From Flavobacteriales bacterium (lineage in GTDB: Bacteria > Bacteroidota > Bacteroidia > Flavobacteriales_D > CAJJDF01): a stretch of DNA of 40,470 nt. The DNA is taken from NCBI GenBank assembly GCA_020630395.1, contig JAHDBM010000003.1:1-40470 (forward strand). Reading direction: 5' to 3'. The translations under genes and the position numbers were made by a program. Shown piece after piece: positions 24,157 to 35,360 of the stretch. Each line of letters begins with the position of its first letter. Position 1 is the first letter of the stretch. The notes below the pieces were generated by a model that saw only the letters and a program-made list of their open reading frames with translations, made no database searches and had not been told where the DNA came from.

Positions 24157-27100
24157 ATGTTGATTAGGTTTTTCTTTGTATTAGCAATTATGTTAAGTTG
24201 TGTTTCCGAATACACTTACTCTCAAGCATGTACAATTTCTGGTGGTGGTGGAACAATATCTGCTGGAACTTCTCAAACTTACTCATTGGATGCTGGTTGT
24301 AACCCCTGCAGAAATTGTAATTCTCCTAATTTTTGGTTTATTTCTTGGGGAGGAACGGGAAGTATAACTATTGGTGGAACTACCTATACTACTTCTCCTG
24401 TTTCTATTAATGGCAGCAGTAATCTTACTGTGCTCTATAATTTAGCTGGCAACTATACTATTAGTTGGGAATGGGGTAGTTCTACATGTAGTCCATCATG
24501 TCCTGGAGGTGGAGCAACATTTGGACCTACTGTAACCGTTAACTGTGCTACTCCTAGCGCATGTTGGAATGGAACATCCATTTGTGAATCAGCTGGTTTA
24601 CTCAATCTAAATACGTTATTGTGTGGAAGTGCAGCTACAGGAGGTACTTGGTCTGGAACTGGTGTTACAGGAAATAATTTTGATCCTACCGGAAGAGGAG
24701 GCCAAACCATTGCCATTACCTATTCAGTTGGAACAGCTCCTTGTGACGATAGTGAAACACATAATATTACGGTAGAAACCCCTGCAGATGCTTGTTGGAA
24801 TGGAACAACACTATGTGAAAACGATCCATCATTTGATTTAACTACTTTGCTTTGTGGAACAGCTACCTCAGGGGGTAGTTGGAGCGGAACTGGAATAACT
24901 GGAAATAATTTTAATCCTAATGGATTAGGTGGACAAACCATTGCAGTAACTTACTCTGTTGGTACAGCTCCATGTGATGATTCTGAAACTCATAATATTA
25001 TTGTTACTGAACAACCAAATTCTCCCAATGGTTCGGATAATTCATTTTCTTCCTGTATTACTCCATATTGTGTAGATTTAAATGCTGGTAGATCATGCAT
25101 TAGCGGGGTATTAAATTGGTATACAACTCCCACTCCAACTGCAGCAACTACAACCATTGCTAATCCCGCAAATGAATGTACTTCTGTAAATACAACATAC
25201 TACGGATTTTGTTATGATGCATCTCAAACAACTAATTGTCAATTTAGCGATTCATTAGAAACTATTATCACTATTACAACCAAGCCAGATCCATGTTGGA
25301 CATCATTTGGTACTATATGTGAAACAAACAATTTCTATGGCTTAAATTTTCAATTATGCGCCTCTTCAACAACTGGTGGTATTTGGAGTGGTCCTGGTGT
25401 AACAGGTAACAGCTTTAATCCTGTTGGATTAGGAGGACAAACTATCGCTTTAACTTACACAGTTGGAACTCCGCCTTGCGATACTCTTGAAACACATAAC
25501 ATTACTATTGTCAATACACCCTCTACTCCGACTGGAGGAAATTCTTCAATAACAAATTGTGGAATTGAATGTATAAATTTAAATCAAGGGCATACCTGTG
25601 CAACAGGAAACTTAAATTGGTATACAACTCCTAATCCTAACAGTGCTACTGTACCAGTAGCTTCAAGTAATAATATATGCCCTAACGCTAACATTACCTA
25701 TTATGGTTTTTGTTATGAAAATACCAATCCAAATAATTGTCAATTTAGTGATTCTATAGAAACTGTAATTACCATTTTACCCGAAAGTGATCCATGCTGG
25801 CTAGCACCTGATACTATTTGTGAGAATAATGGATTAATAAATTTATCTAGTCTACTATGTGCAACTGCTACTACTGGAGGTTCATGGAGTGGGCCTGGTA
25901 TTTTTGGTAGTAATTTTTCTCCTATTGGTAGAGCTGGTCAAAATGTTTACATAACTTACACTGTTGGAACACCACCTTGCGACACTTCATATACTGATAC
26001 AATAACAGTTTTACCTGTAACTGATGCTTGTTTCAATCCAGTATCTCCTCTTTGTGAAAGTGATCCTCCAATCAATCTTAATACCTGGCTTTGTGCATCT
26101 GCCACTTCTGGTGGAACTTGGAGCGGAACTGGTGTTACAGGTAATTCTTTTGATCCAACTGGTTTAGGTGGACAAATTGTAAATATTACTTATACTGTTG
26201 GTGTTTCTCCATGTGTATCTACTGAAACTCATCCTATTCAAGTATCTATTCAGCCAGATCCATGTTGGAATCCAATTGGCACTATATGTCAATCTGAAGC
26301 ACCAGTTAACTTAAATACATTATTATGTCCAACTGGTGTTAGTGGAGGCACATGGTCTGGCACAGGTGTTACAGGTAATACATTTGATCCTGCAGGGTTA
26401 GGAGGAAGTACAATTCCTATTACCTATACCGTAGGACCACCTCATTGTAATAATAGCGAAACACACAATTTCACAATAGCAAATAAACCAACAACTCCTG
26501 CTGGTGGAGACTATGACTTAACAATATGTGGTTCAGGATGTATTAATCTAAATCAAGGAAGAAGCTGTAGCCAAGGAAGTCTACAATGGTATAATATTAG
26601 TAATCCCACTTTAGCTACAGCACCAGTTGTAACCCCAACAAATATTTGTCCTAATTCAGATATTACTTATTATGGTTTTTGTGTTTCTTCTACTAATCCT
26701 ACAGATTGTCAATTTAGTGATTGGGTAGAAACTAGAGTCACGGTAATTCCTAAATCTGATCCATGCTGGAATTCGCCTGCAATAATATGTGATAACGGAG
26801 GATTAATAAATTTGAATGATTGGCTATGTGCTAGCTCTACACTTGGTGGAGAATGGTCTGGACAAGGAATTACTGGTAATACATTAGACCCTTTACTATT
26901 TGGAGATCAAGCTATATCAATAACCTACAAAGTAGGCACTTATCCTTGTGATACTTTTCAAACACAAGATGTTATTATATCAAGAAGCGACCCATCTTTT
27001 GAAACAAGTAATTTTTGTTTTGGAGAATATAATCAAGTAATGGTTACAGGAGTGCAAAGAGGTATTTTTACCTTACATAATGTAATTACTGGTAGTCCAA

Positions 27101-27510
27101 TAATTGATAACAATACTGGTGTAATATCCAATGCTTCTTTAAATGCTATATATACCATTCAATATAAAACCTACACCCCTTGTGTTGATAGTAGTAGTAT
27201 TGATGTTCGAGTTTTAGATTGTGATTCATTAGCTCCTATTTTATTTGTCCCTAATTCTTTTACTCCAGATAGTGATGGATTTAATGATAAATTTATACCA
27301 GTAGCTGAAAATCTAGAAGATTATACCCTATATATCTTTAATAGATGGGGACAATTATTATTTGAAACTAATCAACTTCATGAAGGTTGGGATGGAATGT
27401 ATAATGGAATGAAATGCCCTATTGATAGTTATGTGTGGCGTATTACATATAAAGAATTTAACAGTGCTATCATCACTTCTAAATTTGGACATGTTAATAT
27501 CATTCGATAA
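24157..27510 (+). CDS. Large modular Cys-rich surface protein with type B T9SS sorting domain
   Basis: A 1117-residue secreted protein with a signal peptide cut near YTYSQA. A Gly/Ser/Thr-rich head (about 23-135) is followed by seven A modules of about 77 residues, starting with the Cys of CWNG-like motifs at 136, 213, 380, 547, 625, 703 and 870. Each has GGTWSGTGVTGNNFDP-like, GLGGQ-like and ITYTVGTPPC-like blocks. After A2, A3 and A6 comes a B module of about 88 residues (CINLNQG, LNWYTTP, ITYYGFCY, NCQFSD). The pattern is A-AB-AB-A-A-AB-A. The last 85 or so residues are a type B sorting domain: VPNSFTPDSDGFNDKFIP, LYIFNRWGQLLFET, GWDGMYNGMKCPIDSYVW. Likely a T9SS-exported adhesin or coat protein; ligand unknown. 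No PorP/SprF gene is adjacent. Confidence 0.9.
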   Translation: MLIRFFFVLAIMLSCVSEYTYSQACTISGGGGTISAGTSQTYSLDAGCNPCRNCNSPNFWFISWGGTGSITIGGTTYTTSPVSINGSSNLTVLYNLAGNYTISWEWGSSTCSPSCPGGGATFGPTVTVNCATPSACWNGTSICESAGLLNLNTLLCGSAATGGTWSGTGVTGNNFDPTGRGGQTIAITYSVGTAPCDDSETHNITVETPADACWNGTTLCENDPSFDLTTLLCGTATSGGSWSGTGITGNNFNPNGLGGQTIAVTYSVGTAPCDDSETHNIIVTEQPNSPNGSDNSFSSCITPYCVDLNAGRSCISGVLNWYTTPTPTAATTTIANPANECTSVNTTYYGFCYDASQTTNCQFSDSLETIITITTKPDPCWTSFGTICETNNFYGLNFQLCASSTTGGIWSGPGVTGNSFNPVGLGGQTIALTYTVGTPPCDTLETHNITIVNTPSTPTGGNSSITNCGIECINLNQGHTCATGNLNWYTTPNPNSATVPVASSNNICPNANITYYGFCYENTNPNNCQFSDSIETVITILPESDPCWLAPDTICENNGLINLSSLLCATATTGGSWSGPGIFGSNFSPIGRAGQNVYITYTVGTPPCDTSYTDTITVLPVTDACFNPVSPLCESDPPINLNTWLCASATSGGTWSGTGVTGNSFDPTGLGGQIVNITYTVGVSPCVSTETHPIQVSIQPDPCWNPIGTICQSEAPVNLNTLLCPTGVSGGTWSGTGVTGNTFDPAGLGGSTIPITYTVGPPHCNNSETHNFTIANKPTTPAGGDYDLTICGSGCINLNQGRSCSQGSLQWYNISNPTLATAPVVTPTNICPNSDITYYGFCVSSTNPTDCQFSDWVETRVTVIPKSDPCWNSPAIICDNGGLINLNDWLCASSTLGGEWSGQGITGNTLDPLLFGDQAISITYKVGTYPCDTFQTQDVIISRSDPSFETSNFCFGEYNQVMVTGVQRGIFTLHNVITGSPIIDNNTGVISNASLNAIYTIQYKTYTPCVDSSSIDVRVLDCDSLAPILFVPNSFTPDSDGFNDKFIPVAENLEDYTLYIFNRWGQLLFETNQLHEGWDGMYNGMKCPIDSYVWRITYKEFNSAIITSKFGHVNIIR
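24562..26994 (+). repeat. Seven A and three B coding repeats inside the surface-protein gene
   Basis: In-frame repeats of about 231-234 bases (A) and about 265 bases (B). A units begin at 24562, 24793, 25294, 25795, 26029, 26263 and 26764. Units 2, 3 and 6 carry the B extension, giving a 501-base AB period three times. Units differ clearly in DNA sequence, so expansion is old rather than recent, although short identical blocks such as GGTGTTACAGGTAA recur. Confidence 0.85.
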
Positions 27511-27584
27511 ATACCCTATACTTTGTTATATGTTTTTGTCAATTAAAAGCATAATGCTATTTTAGTATGATATAATATTTTTAT

Positions 27585-29111
27585 TTGGCAGTAAAAGCAA
27601 ACATATTACAAGGGGCATTAAAAAGTAGTAATCGAATAAGCTACAAGAAAGAAAAAGCGCCAATAATTCAACAAAAAAAAGCATTAAAACGTATTTTAAG
27701 AAGAGCTAAAGACACTTCTTTTGGAAAAGTTTATCGCTTTGATAAAATATTAAATTCAAATCAAGAAATACAATCCTTTCAAAGGTTTGTACCTATTCAT
27801 GATTATGACTCTATACATGACAAATGGTGGTTTAGAACAATTAGAGGTGAAGAAGATGTTTGTTGGCCGGGTAGGATTAACCGATTTGCTTTAAGTTCTG
27901 GAACTTCTGGATCCCCTAGTAAGCAAATCCCTGTATCTAGATCTCAAATGAGGAAAATTAGAAAAGCTAGTCTCTTACAGATGACTTACTTAAACCAACA
28001 TGATTTTCCTAAAGATTTTTTTGAAGCTTCCATACTAGGTGTCGGTGGAAGTAGCACATTAACAAAAATTGAAGGGCGAAAAGAAGGAGATTTAAGTGGT
28101 ATTATCTCTGCTAATTTACCAAGTTGGTTTTCTTCTATTTACAAACCCGAAAAAGAAATTAGTGCCATTACTGATTGGGATGAAAAAATTGAAGAAATGG
28201 TGAAAGCCGCTCCTAATTGGAACATTGGCATTATTGCTGGCATACCAGCTTGGATTCAAATTCTGCTAGAAAATATTATTGAGCGATATGATTTAAAAAA
28301 CATACATGAATTATGGCCTAACTTTAATGTTTTAGTTCATGGCGGAGTAGCTTTTGGTCCTTACAAAGAAAATTTCCAGAAATTACTTGGAAAAGAAATA
28401 GACTACATGGAAACTTATTTAGCCTCAGAAGGTTTTATGGCTATAAGTTCTGGTAAGGGAACTCCTTTAAAACTTTTACTAAATAATGGTATTTTCTTTG
28501 AGTTTATTCCTTTTAATGAGGATAACTTTACACCAGATGGTAAAATTGTTGAGTATCCTGAAATACTAACAATAGATCAAGTAAAAGAACATACAGATTA
28601 TGCTATCATTATATCTACTTGTGCTGGAGCTTGGAGGTACATGATAGGTGATACAATTAAATTTTTAAATACCGATAAAGCTGAAATTATTATTACTGGA
28701 AGAACTAAACATTTTTTAAGCCTGTGTGGAGAACATCTTTCAGTCGATAACATGAATAATGCTATTGAAAAAGTTGCTCAGCATTTTAATATTCAAATAC
28801 CTGAATTTACCGTAACTGGATTTGCTTACGAAAATTTATTTGCTCATAAATGGTATATTGGTGTTACTGAACAACAAGATCCACATGAGGTTAAAACAAT
28901 TTTAGACAAAGCTCTTTGTCAATTAAATGATGATTATGCAGTAGAAAGAACTTCTGCTTTAAAAGAAGTATTTATTGAGATTTTGCCTGTAGAAAAATTC
29001 TACGACTACTTAGCTCATATTGGAAAACAAGGCGGACAAGTTAAATTTCCAAGAGTTATTAAAGGTGATTTCTTAGATGATTGGGAAACATATTTAAACA
29101 AAAAAGTTTGA
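27585..29111 (+). CDS. GH3 family acyl-adenylating amide synthetase
   Basis: A 508-residue protein of the GH3 (auxin-responsive promoter) family. Plant members adenylate a carboxylic acid such as indole-acetate or jasmonate and join it to an amino acid. The ATP-binding motifs are present: SSGTSGSPSKQIPVS (about 104-118), YMETYLASEGFMA and MIGDTIKF. The start is TTG at 27585; the next in-frame Met is beyond residue 120, inside the conserved core, and the N-terminus (LQGALKSSNRISY) fits the family, so the TTG is chosen. Its end overlaps the LysE gene by 4 bases (using the TTG at 29108). The substrate of bacterial GH3 proteins is not known to me; amino-acid conjugation followed by export is suggested by the neighbour. 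Confidence 0.9.
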   Translation: MAVKANILQGALKSSNRISYKKEKAPIIQQKKALKRILRRAKDTSFGKVYRFDKILNSNQEIQSFQRFVPIHDYDSIHDKWWFRTIRGEEDVCWPGRINRFALSSGTSGSPSKQIPVSRSQMRKIRKASLLQMTYLNQHDFPKDFFEASILGVGGSSTLTKIEGRKEGDLSGIISANLPSWFSSIYKPEKEISAITDWDEKIEEMVKAAPNWNIGIIAGIPAWIQILLENIIERYDLKNIHELWPNFNVLVHGGVAFGPYKENFQKLLGKEIDYMETYLASEGFMAISSGKGTPLKLLLNNGIFFEFIPFNEDNFTPDGKIVEYPEILTIDQVKEHTDYAIIISTCAGAWRYMIGDTIKFLNTDKAEIIITGRTKHFLSLCGEHLSVDNMNNAIEKVAQHFNIQIPEFTVTGFAYENLFAHKWYIGVTEQQDPHEVKTILDKALCQLNDDYAVERTSALKEVFIEILPVEKFYDYLAHIGKQGGQVKFPRVIKGDFLDDWETYLNKKV

Positions 29112-29824
29112 TAGAAGCTATTGGATCGGCAGCATTACTAGGTTTAGTCTTGAGTTTTTCTCTAGGCCCCATTTTCTTTGAACTTATAAATACAAGTTTA
29201 CGTAAAGGATTTAAAGCTGCTATGTTTTTAGAAATAGGTGTTTTAATGAGTGATATCATCTATTTACTAGTTGCTTTATTTAGTGCTGAAAAGGTATTAT
29301 CCTTAATTCAAGGAAATGATTATTTTAAAATAATTGGAGGATGTGTTTTTATCATATTTGGTATAGTTTCAATTTTAAAAAATTTAATTAAGAAGAAAGA
29401 ACCTAACAAAATTGATCGTAGCAATATCAAACCCATAGATGACACTATTCTAGACAAAGAAAATGAAGAAGAAGAAATAATCGAGATCACACCTAAAGTA
29501 AAAGCTCCTCGATATGTAGGACAAATTATTAAAGGAATAACATTAAATGCAATAAATCCTTCTGTTCTTGTTTTTTGGATTTTCACCTGTACATTTACCA
29601 TTAAAAGCTTAGACGGAACAGGACTTGGTGTAATACCATTCTTTGTAATAACACTTGGTGTTATGTTTGGAATTGACTTAACAAAAATTTATTTCGCTAG
29701 TAAACTAAAAAAATACATGACACCAAAAATACTGTCTATTGTAGGTATTTGTGTAGGTGTAATAATGTTAATAGCTGGAGTATTTTTTGTTTTTATGAAG
29801 TTTGAAATACCCGTTCCTGCTTAA
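29108..29824 (+). CDS. LysE family translocator
   Basis: A 238-residue inner-membrane protein of the LysE/RhtB family, exporting amino acids or similar small molecules. It shows the N-terminal LLGLVLSFSLGPIFFELI, where the family has a conserved Pro-containing first helix, and about six membrane segments. An ATG at 29081 is also in frame, but the TTG at 29108 gives the family N-terminus (IEAIGSAALLG) and a TTGA overlap with the stop of the GH3 gene, the usual form of coupling. A charged loop of about 45 residues (KKKEPNK to PKVKAPRY, with ENEEEEIIE) between the third and fourth segments makes it longer than the usual 205 residues. Its end overlaps a convergent small gene by 4 bases. Confidence 0.88.
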   Translation: MIEAIGSAALLGLVLSFSLGPIFFELINTSLRKGFKAAMFLEIGVLMSDIIYLLVALFSAEKVLSLIQGNDYFKIIGGCVFIIFGIVSILKNLIKKKEPNKIDRSNIKPIDDTILDKENEEEEIIEITPKVKAPRYVGQIIKGITLNAINPSVLVFWIFTCTFTIKSLDGTGLGVIPFFVITLGVMFGIDLTKIYFASKLKKYMTPKILSIVGICVGVIMLIAGVFFVFMKFEIPVPA

Positions 29825-32517: not shown

Positions 32518-33546
32518 ATGAAGATTAGAAGCAAAGCACCATTAAGAATTGGTTTAGCAGGAGGAGGAACAGATGTTAGTCCTTATTCTGATCTGTATAA
32601 TGGTGCAATTTTAAATGCTACTATAAATTTATATGCTTATTGCACTATTATTCCTACAAACAATAACAGCATTAAATTCAATGCTTTGGATGATCATATT
32701 ATTAAAAGTTTTAACTCTAACCTTACGTTATCAACAGATAATGATGGCTTAGTTTTACAAAAAGGAGTATATAATAGAATTGTAAAAGACTTTAATCTTG
32801 ATCCTCTTTCATTTGAAATGATTACCTCTATTGATGTACCCAGTGGATCTGGATTAGGTAGCTCTTCTACTTTAGTTGTAGCCATTATTGGAGCTTTTGT
32901 AGAATGGTTTAACTTACCACTTGGAGAATATGATATTGCTAAATTAGCTTTTAGCATAGAACGAGAAGATTTAAACATGGCTGGTGGTAAACAAGATCAA
33001 TATGCGGCTACTTTTGGAGGTTTTAATTTTATGGAGTTCTACGAGAATGATAAAGTAGTCGTAAATCCATTAAGTTTAAAGCAAGAAACTATTGATGAAT
33101 TAGAATTAAATCTTGTTTTATACTACACTTCAACTAGAAGAGAATCAGCTAATATTATTGATGAACAAGTAACCAATACTAAAGAAAAGAATACGCATGC
33201 AATAGAGGCTACGCATCAAATAAAAGCGCATGCTTTCTCTATGAAAGACTTATTATTGAAACGTCAATTAGATGATTTAGGTATCCTATTAAATAAAAAT
33301 TGGGAAAGCAAGAAAAAAATGGCAAAAGCCATCACAAACCAACAAATTGATACGATATACAATGCTGCCATTGATGCTGGTGCAACTGGAGGTAAAATAT
33401 CTGGTGCTGGAGGTGGTGGTTTCATGATTTTGTATTGTCCAGACAAAGCAAAATATGATGTTATCCAAACATTGCGTACATTTGGCGGAGAAGTTAAAAA
33501 CTTTCAGTTTACTAAAGAAGGCGTAAAACATTGGACAATCAATTAG
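32518..33546 (+). CDS. hddA: D-glycero-alpha-D-manno-heptose 7-phosphate kinase
   Basis: A 342-residue GHMP kinase that phosphorylates D-glycero-D-manno-heptose 7-phosphate at C1 to make the alpha-1,7-bisphosphate. The N-terminal MKIRSKAPLRIGLAGGGTDV is typical of HddA. The ATP-binding motif is PSGSGLGSSSTLV (residues about 108-120), with the C-terminal GHMP motif KISGAGGGGFMILYC. It is first in a three-gene set with gmhA and an hddC-gmhB fusion, together giving the full route from sedoheptulose 7-phosphate to GDP-D-glycero-alpha-D-manno-heptose. Its end overlaps gmhA by 16 bases. Confidence 0.93.
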   Translation: MKIRSKAPLRIGLAGGGTDVSPYSDLYNGAILNATINLYAYCTIIPTNNNSIKFNALDDHIIKSFNSNLTLSTDNDGLVLQKGVYNRIVKDFNLDPLSFEMITSIDVPSGSGLGSSSTLVVAIIGAFVEWFNLPLGEYDIAKLAFSIEREDLNMAGGKQDQYAATFGGFNFMEFYENDKVVVNPLSLKQETIDELELNLVLYYTSTRRESANIIDEQVTNTKEKNTHAIEATHQIKAHAFSMKDLLLKRQLDDLGILLNKNWESKKKMAKAITNQQIDTIYNAAIDAGATGGKISGAGGGGFMILYCPDKAKYDVIQTLRTFGGEVKNFQFTKEGVKHWTIN

Positions 33547-34115
33547 CACATATACAAGATACTATTCAATCTTCATTAAAGATTAAACAAGATATTCTTT
33601 CTAATTCTACTATTTTATCACAAGTTGAACTTGCCATTCAAGCAATGGTTAGTTGCTATAATAACGAAGGTCAAGTTTTATTTGGAGGAAACGGAGGTAG
33701 TGCAGCTGATGCACAACATCTTGCCGCAGAATTATCCGGTAAATTTTATTTAGACAGAAGACCACTTAATGCTGAAGCTTTACACGCAAATTCATCCTAT
33801 TTAACTGCCGCTAGTAATGATTTTTCTTTTGATGAAGCTTATGCTCGTATTGTAGAAGCCAAAGGAAAAAAAGGAGATATTCTAGTCGCTATATCTACCT
33901 CTGGTAATTCATCCAATATTGTTGAAGCTGTTAAAGTAGCTAAACAAAAAGGAATGATAATCATTGCGCTATCTGGTAATGATGGTGGAACTCTAAAAAA
34001 CATTAGTGATATTAATATTATTGTTCCATCTAATGATACTCCAAGAATTCAAGAATGTCATATTCTTCTTGGTCATATTATATGTGAACAAGTTGAAAAA
34101 GCCCTTTTTTCATAA
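33531..34115 (+). CDS. gmhA: Phosphoheptose isomerase
   Basis: A 194-residue SIS-domain enzyme turning sedoheptulose 7-phosphate into D-glycero-D-manno-heptose 7-phosphate, the first step of heptose synthesis. Motifs: FGGNGGSAADAQHLAAELSG with the metal-site His and Glu, STSGNSSNIVEAV for phosphate binding, and IQECHILLGHIICEQVE with the second Gln/His pair seen in E. coli GmhA. It starts with TTG at 33531, inside the end of hddA; the next in-frame ATG would cut into the fold, so the TTG is chosen. Length equals the family norm. Confidence 0.94.
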   Translation: MDNQLAHIQDTIQSSLKIKQDILSNSTILSQVELAIQAMVSCYNNEGQVLFGGNGGSAADAQHLAAELSGKFYLDRRPLNAEALHANSSYLTAASNDFSFDEAYARIVEAKGKKGDILVAISTSGNSSNIVEAVKVAKQKGMIIIALSGNDGGTLKNISDINIIVPSNDTPRIQECHILLGHIICEQVEKALFS

Positions 34116-34121
34116 TTCATT

Positions 34122-35360
34122 ATGATTACCGAAGCAATTATATTAGCTGGTGGTAAAGGAACTCGATTACAATCGGTTATAAAGGACATCCCTAAGCCTA
34201 TGGCTAAAATAGCAGGCAGACCTTTTATTACCTATATTTTTGATGAGTTAAGTAATCAAGGAATAAAACATGTTATACTTTCAGTAGGATATAAACATGA
34301 AGTGATAACTAAAAGCTTTGGAGGTTATTACAAAAATATGACCATCTCTTATTCTATAGAGACATCTCCATTAGGAACCGGAGGTGCCATCAAACAAGCA
34401 CTTAACCTTTGTGAAACTAATGATCCATTAATCCTTAATGGCGACACCTTATTCTCAATTGACATTAAGTCATTATATAACGTTCATAGCCAACAAAAAA
34501 GCGATTTAACCATTGCTTTAAAAGAGTTAACTCATTTTGATCGATATGGAACTGTTAAAATTGAACATAATCTAATTACTCATTTTGTATCTAAGAAACC
34601 TTGTAAAAAAGGACTTATTAATGGAGGAATTTACTTAATTAATCGATCAGCAACTGATCTATCTTCCCTACCCGATTCTTTTTCTTTTGAAACAGACTTT
34701 TTAGAGAAAAAAACGAGCGATATTTCAATGAATGGTTACCCATTTGACAATTACTTTATTGATATTGGCATACCAGAAGATTATAAGAAAGCTCAATTAG
34801 ACTTAAAGCAACTTAACACTACATCACTTCCAATCATTGATGAAACATGGACGATTTTTTTAGATAGAGATGGTGTTATTAATAAGAAAATTGACAATGG
34901 CTATGTTACTAGTTTTAAATCTTTTGATTTTTTACCTAGAGCAATTGAAGCAATTAAGAAGCTCACGGCTTGTGCAGGAGAAATTTTCATTGTAACTAAT
35001 CAGCAGTGTGTTGGTAAAGAGATTATTTCTAATGATGACCTATACTTCATACATGATGAGATGCTTAATGCCATAGAAGAACAAAACGGAAGTATAACTC
35101 AAATATATTACGCTCCTCAATTAAAAGAAGAAGAAAGTGCATACCGAAAACCAAATAGTGGAATGGCAGATTTAGCAAAAGAAGATTTTCCTTATATCGA
35201 TTTTAATAAATCAATTGTTATTGGAGATTCGGATAGTGATATTCAATTTGGCTTAAATAAAGGGATGATTACCATTAAAATAGAACACCAAAATTCTGGT
35301 GTAGCTCATTTTTCATTTCCTAGTCTTTTTGAAGTAGTAAAGAGCATCTGTAATATTTAA
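34122..35360 (+). CDS. Fused heptose-1-phosphate guanylyltransferase and heptose bisphosphatase (HddC-GmhB)
   Basis: A 412-residue two-enzyme protein. Residues about 1-230 are a nucleotidyltransferase of the HddC type (LAGGKGTRLQSVIKDIPKPM, LNGDTLFSID, DIGIPEDYKKA), joining GTP to heptose 1-phosphate. Residues about 240-412 are a HAD phosphatase of the GmhB/HisB-N group, with the nucleophile motif FLDRDGVINK near 246-255, VTNQQCVGKE and IGDSDSDIQFG. It should remove the 7-phosphate of heptose 1,7-bisphosphate. The Cys/His zinc loop that GmhB normally has before CRKP is missing: here the segment reads YYAPQLKEEESAYRKPNSGM. The gene starts 6 bases after gmhA and completes the pathway. Confidence 0.92.
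   Translation: MITEAIILAGGKGTRLQSVIKDIPKPMAKIAGRPFITYIFDELSNQGIKHVILSVGYKHEVITKSFGGYYKNMTISYSIETSPLGTGGAIKQALNLCETNDPLILNGDTLFSIDIKSLYNVHSQQKSDLTIALKELTHFDRYGTVKIEHNLITHFVSKKPCKKGLINGGIYLINRSATDLSSLPDSFSFETDFLEKKTSDISMNGYPFDNYFIDIGIPEDYKKAQLDLKQLNTTSLPIIDETWTIFLDRDGVINKKIDNGYVTSFKSFDFLPRAIEAIKKLTACAGEIFIVTNQQCVGKEIISNDDLYFIHDEMLNAIEEQNGSITQIYYAPQLKEEESAYRKPNSGMADLAKEDFPYIDFNKSIVIGDSDSDIQFGLNKGMITIKIEHQNSGVAHFSFPSLFEVVKSICNI

Follow-up and report, generated by a model that had tools for sequence, protein, structure and literature searches.

In plants, GH3 enzymes conjugate small carboxylic acids with amino acids. Bacteroidota membranes are rich in amino-acid lipids, among them glycine, Gly-Ser and ornithine lipids, and some of these lipids act on host receptors. 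A bacterial GH3 homologue, OlsH of Singulisphaera acidiphila, was described in 2025 as converting ornithine, free fatty acid and ATP into N-acyl-ornithine, and its authors reported more than 7500 homologues, almost 90% of them in Bacteroidota, for which they suggested other amino acids (PMC12493201). A preliminary description of the locus studied here knew of no substrate assigned to bacterial GH3 proteins of this type, a view that OlsH renders outdated. Bacteroidota also possess acyltransferases of family PF13444, namely the long, bifunctional OlsF, which leads to ornithine lipids, and GlsB, of about 320 aa, which leads to glycine lipids (PMC11631085, PMC10191378). The ligase that adds serine to N-acyl-glycine was marked as unidentified in December 2025, with six Pfam families searched and GH3 not among them (PMC12746155), and Chitinophaga (Chitinophagaceae) makes Gly-Ser-Orn tripeptide lipids (PMC8433624). 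The LysE superfamily is reported to include amino acid exporters as well as the lipid-transporting GAP family, whose members export peptidoglycolipids (PMC4608589). Neither "LysE" nor "exporter" occurs in the main text of the OlsH paper (PMC12493201), and our search of the open-access literature for GH3 with LysE, or for export of N-acyl amino acids, returned nothing relevant, although earlier recognition of such a pair is possible.

The window analysed here, 40,470 nucleotides of contig JAHDBM010000003.1 from a Flavobacteriales bacterium (assembly GCA_020630395.1), contains an intact GH3 gene that overlaps a LysE-type gene by four bases. This arrangement had been proposed in the preliminary description, and we confirm both its coordinates (Table 1) and the presence of Pfam domains scoring above their cut-offs. 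In a tree of 120 GH3 proteins, three clades, A, B and C, separate cleanly; the GH3 gene of the window belongs to clade C, and its own genome holds three GH3 genes, one of each clade.

Table 1. Features of the GH3-LysE locus (window positions) and of convergent genes at other clade-C loci (positions within each locus)
Feature	Position	Strand	Remarks
GH3-family ligase, clade C	27585..29111	+	508 aa, TTG start, intact
Nucleotide motif I, SSGTSGSPSK	27894..27923	+	residues 104-113, aligned to GH3 motif I
Nucleotide motif II, TYLASEG	28413..28433	+	residues 277-283
Nucleotide motif III, GAWRYMIGD	28626..28652	+	residues 348-356
GH3 hinge region between large and small domains, GRTKHFLSLCGEHLSVDNM	28698..28754	+	conservation clade-specific
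LysE-type translocator	29108..29824	+	238 aa, TTG start
TTGA overlap, GH3 stop and LysE start	29108..29111	+	sequence, 4 bases
LysE cytoplasmic-type loop with acidic stretch	29393..29512	+	about residues 96-135, family-specific, partly predicted disordered
Possible Bacteroidota-type promoter, TTTG + 19 bases + TATTTTAG	27535..27565	+	weak; rejected (see text)
GHELGH proteins convergent to clade C	L168 5664-6233; L169 5776-6396; L170 5694-6317; L173 5813-6358; L174 7970-8599		

The Pfam GH3 N, middle and C domains of the window protein score 116.6, 56.2 and 43.1 bits, all above cut-offs. Its three nucleotide motifs, following published definitions (PMC12493201), are intact and conserved through clade C (SSGTSG..SK, YLASEG and GAWRYMIGD), with motif I residues S105, G106, T107, S112 and K113 invariant across the clade. 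Modelled by AlphaFold with the help of its homologues, the protein (mean pLDDT 82) adopts the GH3 tertiary fold, and its top fold matches are plant GH3 structures, the best PDB match being JAR1 with JA-Ile (4EPL; TM 0.74, E 1.6e-24). Its enzyme class is thus well supported, and ATP-dependent amide bond formation is predicted for it. Fold and motifs are shared with the plant amido synthetases JAR1/AtGH3.11, GH3.5, GH3.6 and PBS3, but identity to plant GH3 is about 16% in structural alignment, and we found no evidence of a hormone substrate for clade C.

OlsH offers a nearer comparison, being of the same family and similar length, with the three nucleotide motifs recognisable, and ATP-dependent amide formation would be expected of both enzymes. 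The OlsH model (NF052613; Sinac_1599) is the best NCBIfam match of the window GH3, which scores 321.9 bits, below the cut-off of 620, and the two paralogs in the same genome score higher than clade C's 322, at 428 and 419 bits; we therefore rejected orthology to OlsH and, on these scores, regard the window protein as a relative of OlsH rather than a filed member. The genetic settings differ too: the planctomycete OlsH operon is reported to contain OlsI, whereas the neighbours of clade C are LysE and unrelated genes, not olsG or olsI.

The partner protein scores 58.5 bits against PF01810, above the Pfam gathering cut-off of 25.6, and is modelled by AlphaFold (pLDDT 84) as an all-helical membrane protein. 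It thus resembles LysE/RhtB exporters in family match and as a short helical membrane protein, and differs from them in its link to a GH3 ligase. It scores 20.6 bits, far below the curated cut-off of 183.95, against the model for RhtB homoserine/threonine exporters (TIGR00949), and likewise falls below the RhtC equivalog cut-off. Among solved structures we found no sequence match to it and no fold match with E <= 0.001. Homologues bear out the earlier view that both genes start with TTG. At the aligned GH3 start, the same-genus homologue has ATG and three other family members have TTG; at 29108, where LysE begins, TTG recurs in the same-genus homologue and the other family members have ATG. 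This agreement in position supports both starts, with the LysE frame itself open further upstream, to a TTG at 29081. The acidic loop that had been singled out as unusual is present in the window LysE; however, it is confined to the source family and its near kin, is absent from LysE partners elsewhere, and has pLDDT below 50 at residues 116-130, which are predicted to be disordered. We accordingly rejected the loop as a functional feature and regard it as a lineage-specific linker, no part of the GH3-LysE module.

The pairing of GH3 with LysE is well supported across Bacteroidota. We assembled 96 clade-C loci from the best 80 matches of a scan of genome contigs, picked by similarity to the window and almost all labelled Bacteroidota, together with loci from relatives. 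In 68 of them the next gene downstream is a LysE gene in the same orientation, and in six it is a LysE gene on the opposite strand. The next commonest neighbour occurs at 17 of the 96; a third operon gene was rejected on this count, and no GH3-linked acyltransferase was found beside clade C. In an independent sample of 295 genomes spread evenly over the class, many of them metagenome-assembled, 145 carry clade C, and in at least 92 of these, from 24 of 40 families, the gene that directly follows clade C in the same orientation is LysE. This count is a lower bound, as weak LysE matches were listed without coordinates, and it compares with a roughly estimated chance expectation of about 0.03. 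The preliminary description had named rare adjacency in other genomes as grounds against its proposal; the two genes are clearly not rarely adjacent. None of 40 paralogous A and B genes has a listed LysE within 3 kb.

Of the 145 genomes with clade C, 137 have LysE, as do 71 of the 150 without clade C, which indicates that LysE has other roles or substrates too. The wider neighbourhood turns over while the pair stays, often overlapping or nearly so, and in some relatives the two genes lie about 8-21 kb apart on one contig. Linked and unlinked members are intermixed in the LysE tree, a pattern that fits an old pairing lost several times. One large family has a clade-C gene that is not linked to LysE but stands convergent with a conserved protein of about 200 aa that has a GHELGH (HExxH) metallopeptidase-like motif and no Pfam match; the loci of this protein listed in Table 1 come from that family and one other genome. 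In the families of two close relatives, LysE lacks a clade-C neighbour and has another conserved gene at its side. At two relatives' loci without clade C (L086 5147-6877, L087 7156-8924), LysE adjoins a gene for a conserved protein that resembles an FAD-dependent oxidoreductase, and at L073 (6862-10502) the order is this gene, GH3 and LysE.

The distributions of GH3 clades C and B are largely complementary to those of the PF13444 acyltransferases OlsF and GlsB/GlsA, which belong to an unrelated family but have in common with GH3 a proposed role in amino acid N-acylation: clade C rarely occurs together with OlsF, and the complementarity of clade B to GlsB is almost strict. We separated long, OlsF-like PF13444 proteins from short ones by length and score only. 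Among the 295 genomes, 145 with clade C and 73 with an OlsF-like protein, both occur together in two, where independence would predict about 36 (p 3e-23 with no correction for ancestry). In a subset of 60 genomes, selected by their clade C and OlsF content at a time when that of B and GlsB had yet to be established, clade C versus OlsF gives counts of 1/39/13/7 (family-collapsed p 7.6e-4), and clade B versus GlsB gives 24 genomes with B only, 34 with GlsB only, two with neither and none with both (family-collapsed p 1.5e-7). Later exceptions to the B-GlsB pattern are genome G056, which clearly has both, and G101, which is ambiguous. With the GH3-A tree as proxy for the species tree, five of six supported independent contrasts for B and GlsB are opposite and none is in the same direction (p 0.0625), while those for C and OlsF number two to three opposite and none the same, which is not significant. 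Taken together, the collapsed counts and ancestry contrasts make the B-GlsB relation firm and the C-OlsF relation suggestive. The source genome has no PF13444 acyltransferase; its clade B and clade A paralogs are L007 (C41) and L006 (C28). Clade A occurs nearly throughout the class (58 of the 60 genomes), whatever acyltransferases are present.

Our analysis supports the GH3 fold and motifs, the conserved pair and the complementarity with OlsF, and the chemistry and distribution of the GH3 clades point to amino lipids. In the mechanism that we propose, for which we infer the lipid substrate, the choice of amino acid, and the cargo and direction of LysE, the two genes would form a translationally coupled unit. 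The clade-C enzyme would use ATP to turn a lipid carboxylate into an acyl-adenylate and transfer the acyl group to an amino acid, at its amino group; the acceptor would tentatively be ornithine or a different basic amino acid, and the result an N-acyl amino acid or the head group of an amino lipid. Either this product or its amino acid would then cross the inner membrane by way of LysE. We consider the balance about even that clade C is such an ATP-dependent amino-lipid ligase, possibly for ornithine, with LysE moving the product or the amino acid; that the enzyme joins an amino acid to a fatty acid is probable. The intact motifs and full GH3 fold nearest JAR1, the chemistry of OlsH (PMC12493201), and the rarity of genomes with both C and OlsF together with a source genome free of PF13444 proteins all argue for a ligase of this kind; the adjacency to LysE of clade C alone among GH3 clades, the greater frequency of LysE in genomes with clade C, and the reported export of amino acids and peptidoglycolipids within the LysE superfamily (PMC4608589) argue for its coupling to a transporter. 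Against it stand the position of clade C as the least OlsH-like of the three paralogs, the few and non-significant C-OlsF ancestry contrasts, the occurrence of LysE without clade C, and the genomes in which C and OlsF coexist: four of one family, in which no LysE adjoins clade C, and G324, a class genome in which clade C is adjacent to LysE. The phylum-wide conservation of the pair supports the central part of the earlier suggestion, a unit that makes and exports an acyl-amino acid, or else one that makes and flips it.

The same observations could be read differently. The GH3 enzyme might make a membrane amino lipid while LysE acts as a valve, not for this lipid but for the free amino acid used to make it, such as ornithine, lysine or arginine. 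Characterised LysE/RhtB members do export amino acids (PMC4608589), and the many genomes with LysE but no clade C, like the intermixing of linked and unlinked LysE proteins, are as expected of a general exporter; such a valve alone, however, leaves unexplained why only clade C of the three GH3 clades is tied to LysE, and we regard it as possible but somewhat unlikely. Nor does the adjacency itself compel a functional link, since linkage looks ancestral and lost several times, as the tree and the separations within contigs suggest, and the gene order could simply be inherited. Yet the pair persists, often overlapping or nearly so, while its surroundings turn over, and 24 families keep it, which makes mere inheritance of gene order very unlikely. 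Plant GH3 chemistry and the structural match to JAR1 would also suit conjugation of a small aromatic or hormone-like acid with an amino acid, followed by export of the conjugate by LysE for signalling or detoxification. In the neighbourhoods we found nothing tied to the metabolism of aromatic compounds or hormones, fatty acids are the substrates of the closest bacterial homologue to have been characterised (PMC12493201), and the co-occurrence data point to amino lipids; the earlier idea that a conjugated signal or toxic acid is exported has no support here, and we judge small-acid conjugation highly improbable.

Returning to amino-lipid synthesis, we suggest a wider model in which Bacteroidota possess a second, GNAT-independent amino-lipid pathway of three GH3 ligases and, next to C, a dedicated lipid transporter of the LysE family, a model that we put forward tentatively and consider unlikely as it stands. 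In it, the near-universal clade A would add serine to N-acyl-glycine, B would make N-acyl-glycine where GlsB is missing, and C would add ornithine where OlsF is missing, the amino acids being those that we infer for each clade; the source genome would then rely on GH3 enzymes alone. The patterns name GH3 enzymes, and clade A in particular, as candidates for the serine ligase of Gly-Ser lipids, and clade B as a candidate replacement for N-acyl-glycine synthase where GlsB is missing, giving each clade one testable role. A lead for clade C comes from family f15: all of its sampled genomes carry clade C, and the LysE tree places it with loci of Chitinophagaceae; together with the Gly-Ser-Orn lipids of Chitinophaga, this offers a hint of the role of clade C. 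The tie of one GH3 clade to a transporter concerns a step for which neither "exporter" nor "transport" occurs in a review of aminolipids (PMC11631085), and the persistence of the GH3-LysE pair in many families of Bacteroidota suggests an uncharacterised route by which amino-acid lipids are made and moved.

Upstream of the GH3 gene, a ATAATGCTATTTTAGT block is common to the same-genus homologue. The possible promoter in this region (Table 1) was rejected, as counts of its pattern within the window are at chance level. Elsewhere in the window, a small PlsC-type acyltransferase (PF01553; 3689-4252), a possible candidate for O-acylation, is unlinked to GH3-LysE. Directly upstream of the pair (24157-27510) lies a gene for a repetitive, cysteine-rich protein of 1117 aa with a CHU_C type IX secretion signal domain, and at 32518-35360 a GHMP kinase, a SIS-domain protein and a nucleotidyltransferase fused to a HAD-type phosphatase follow one another in a row that resembles a GDP-heptose synthesis cluster.
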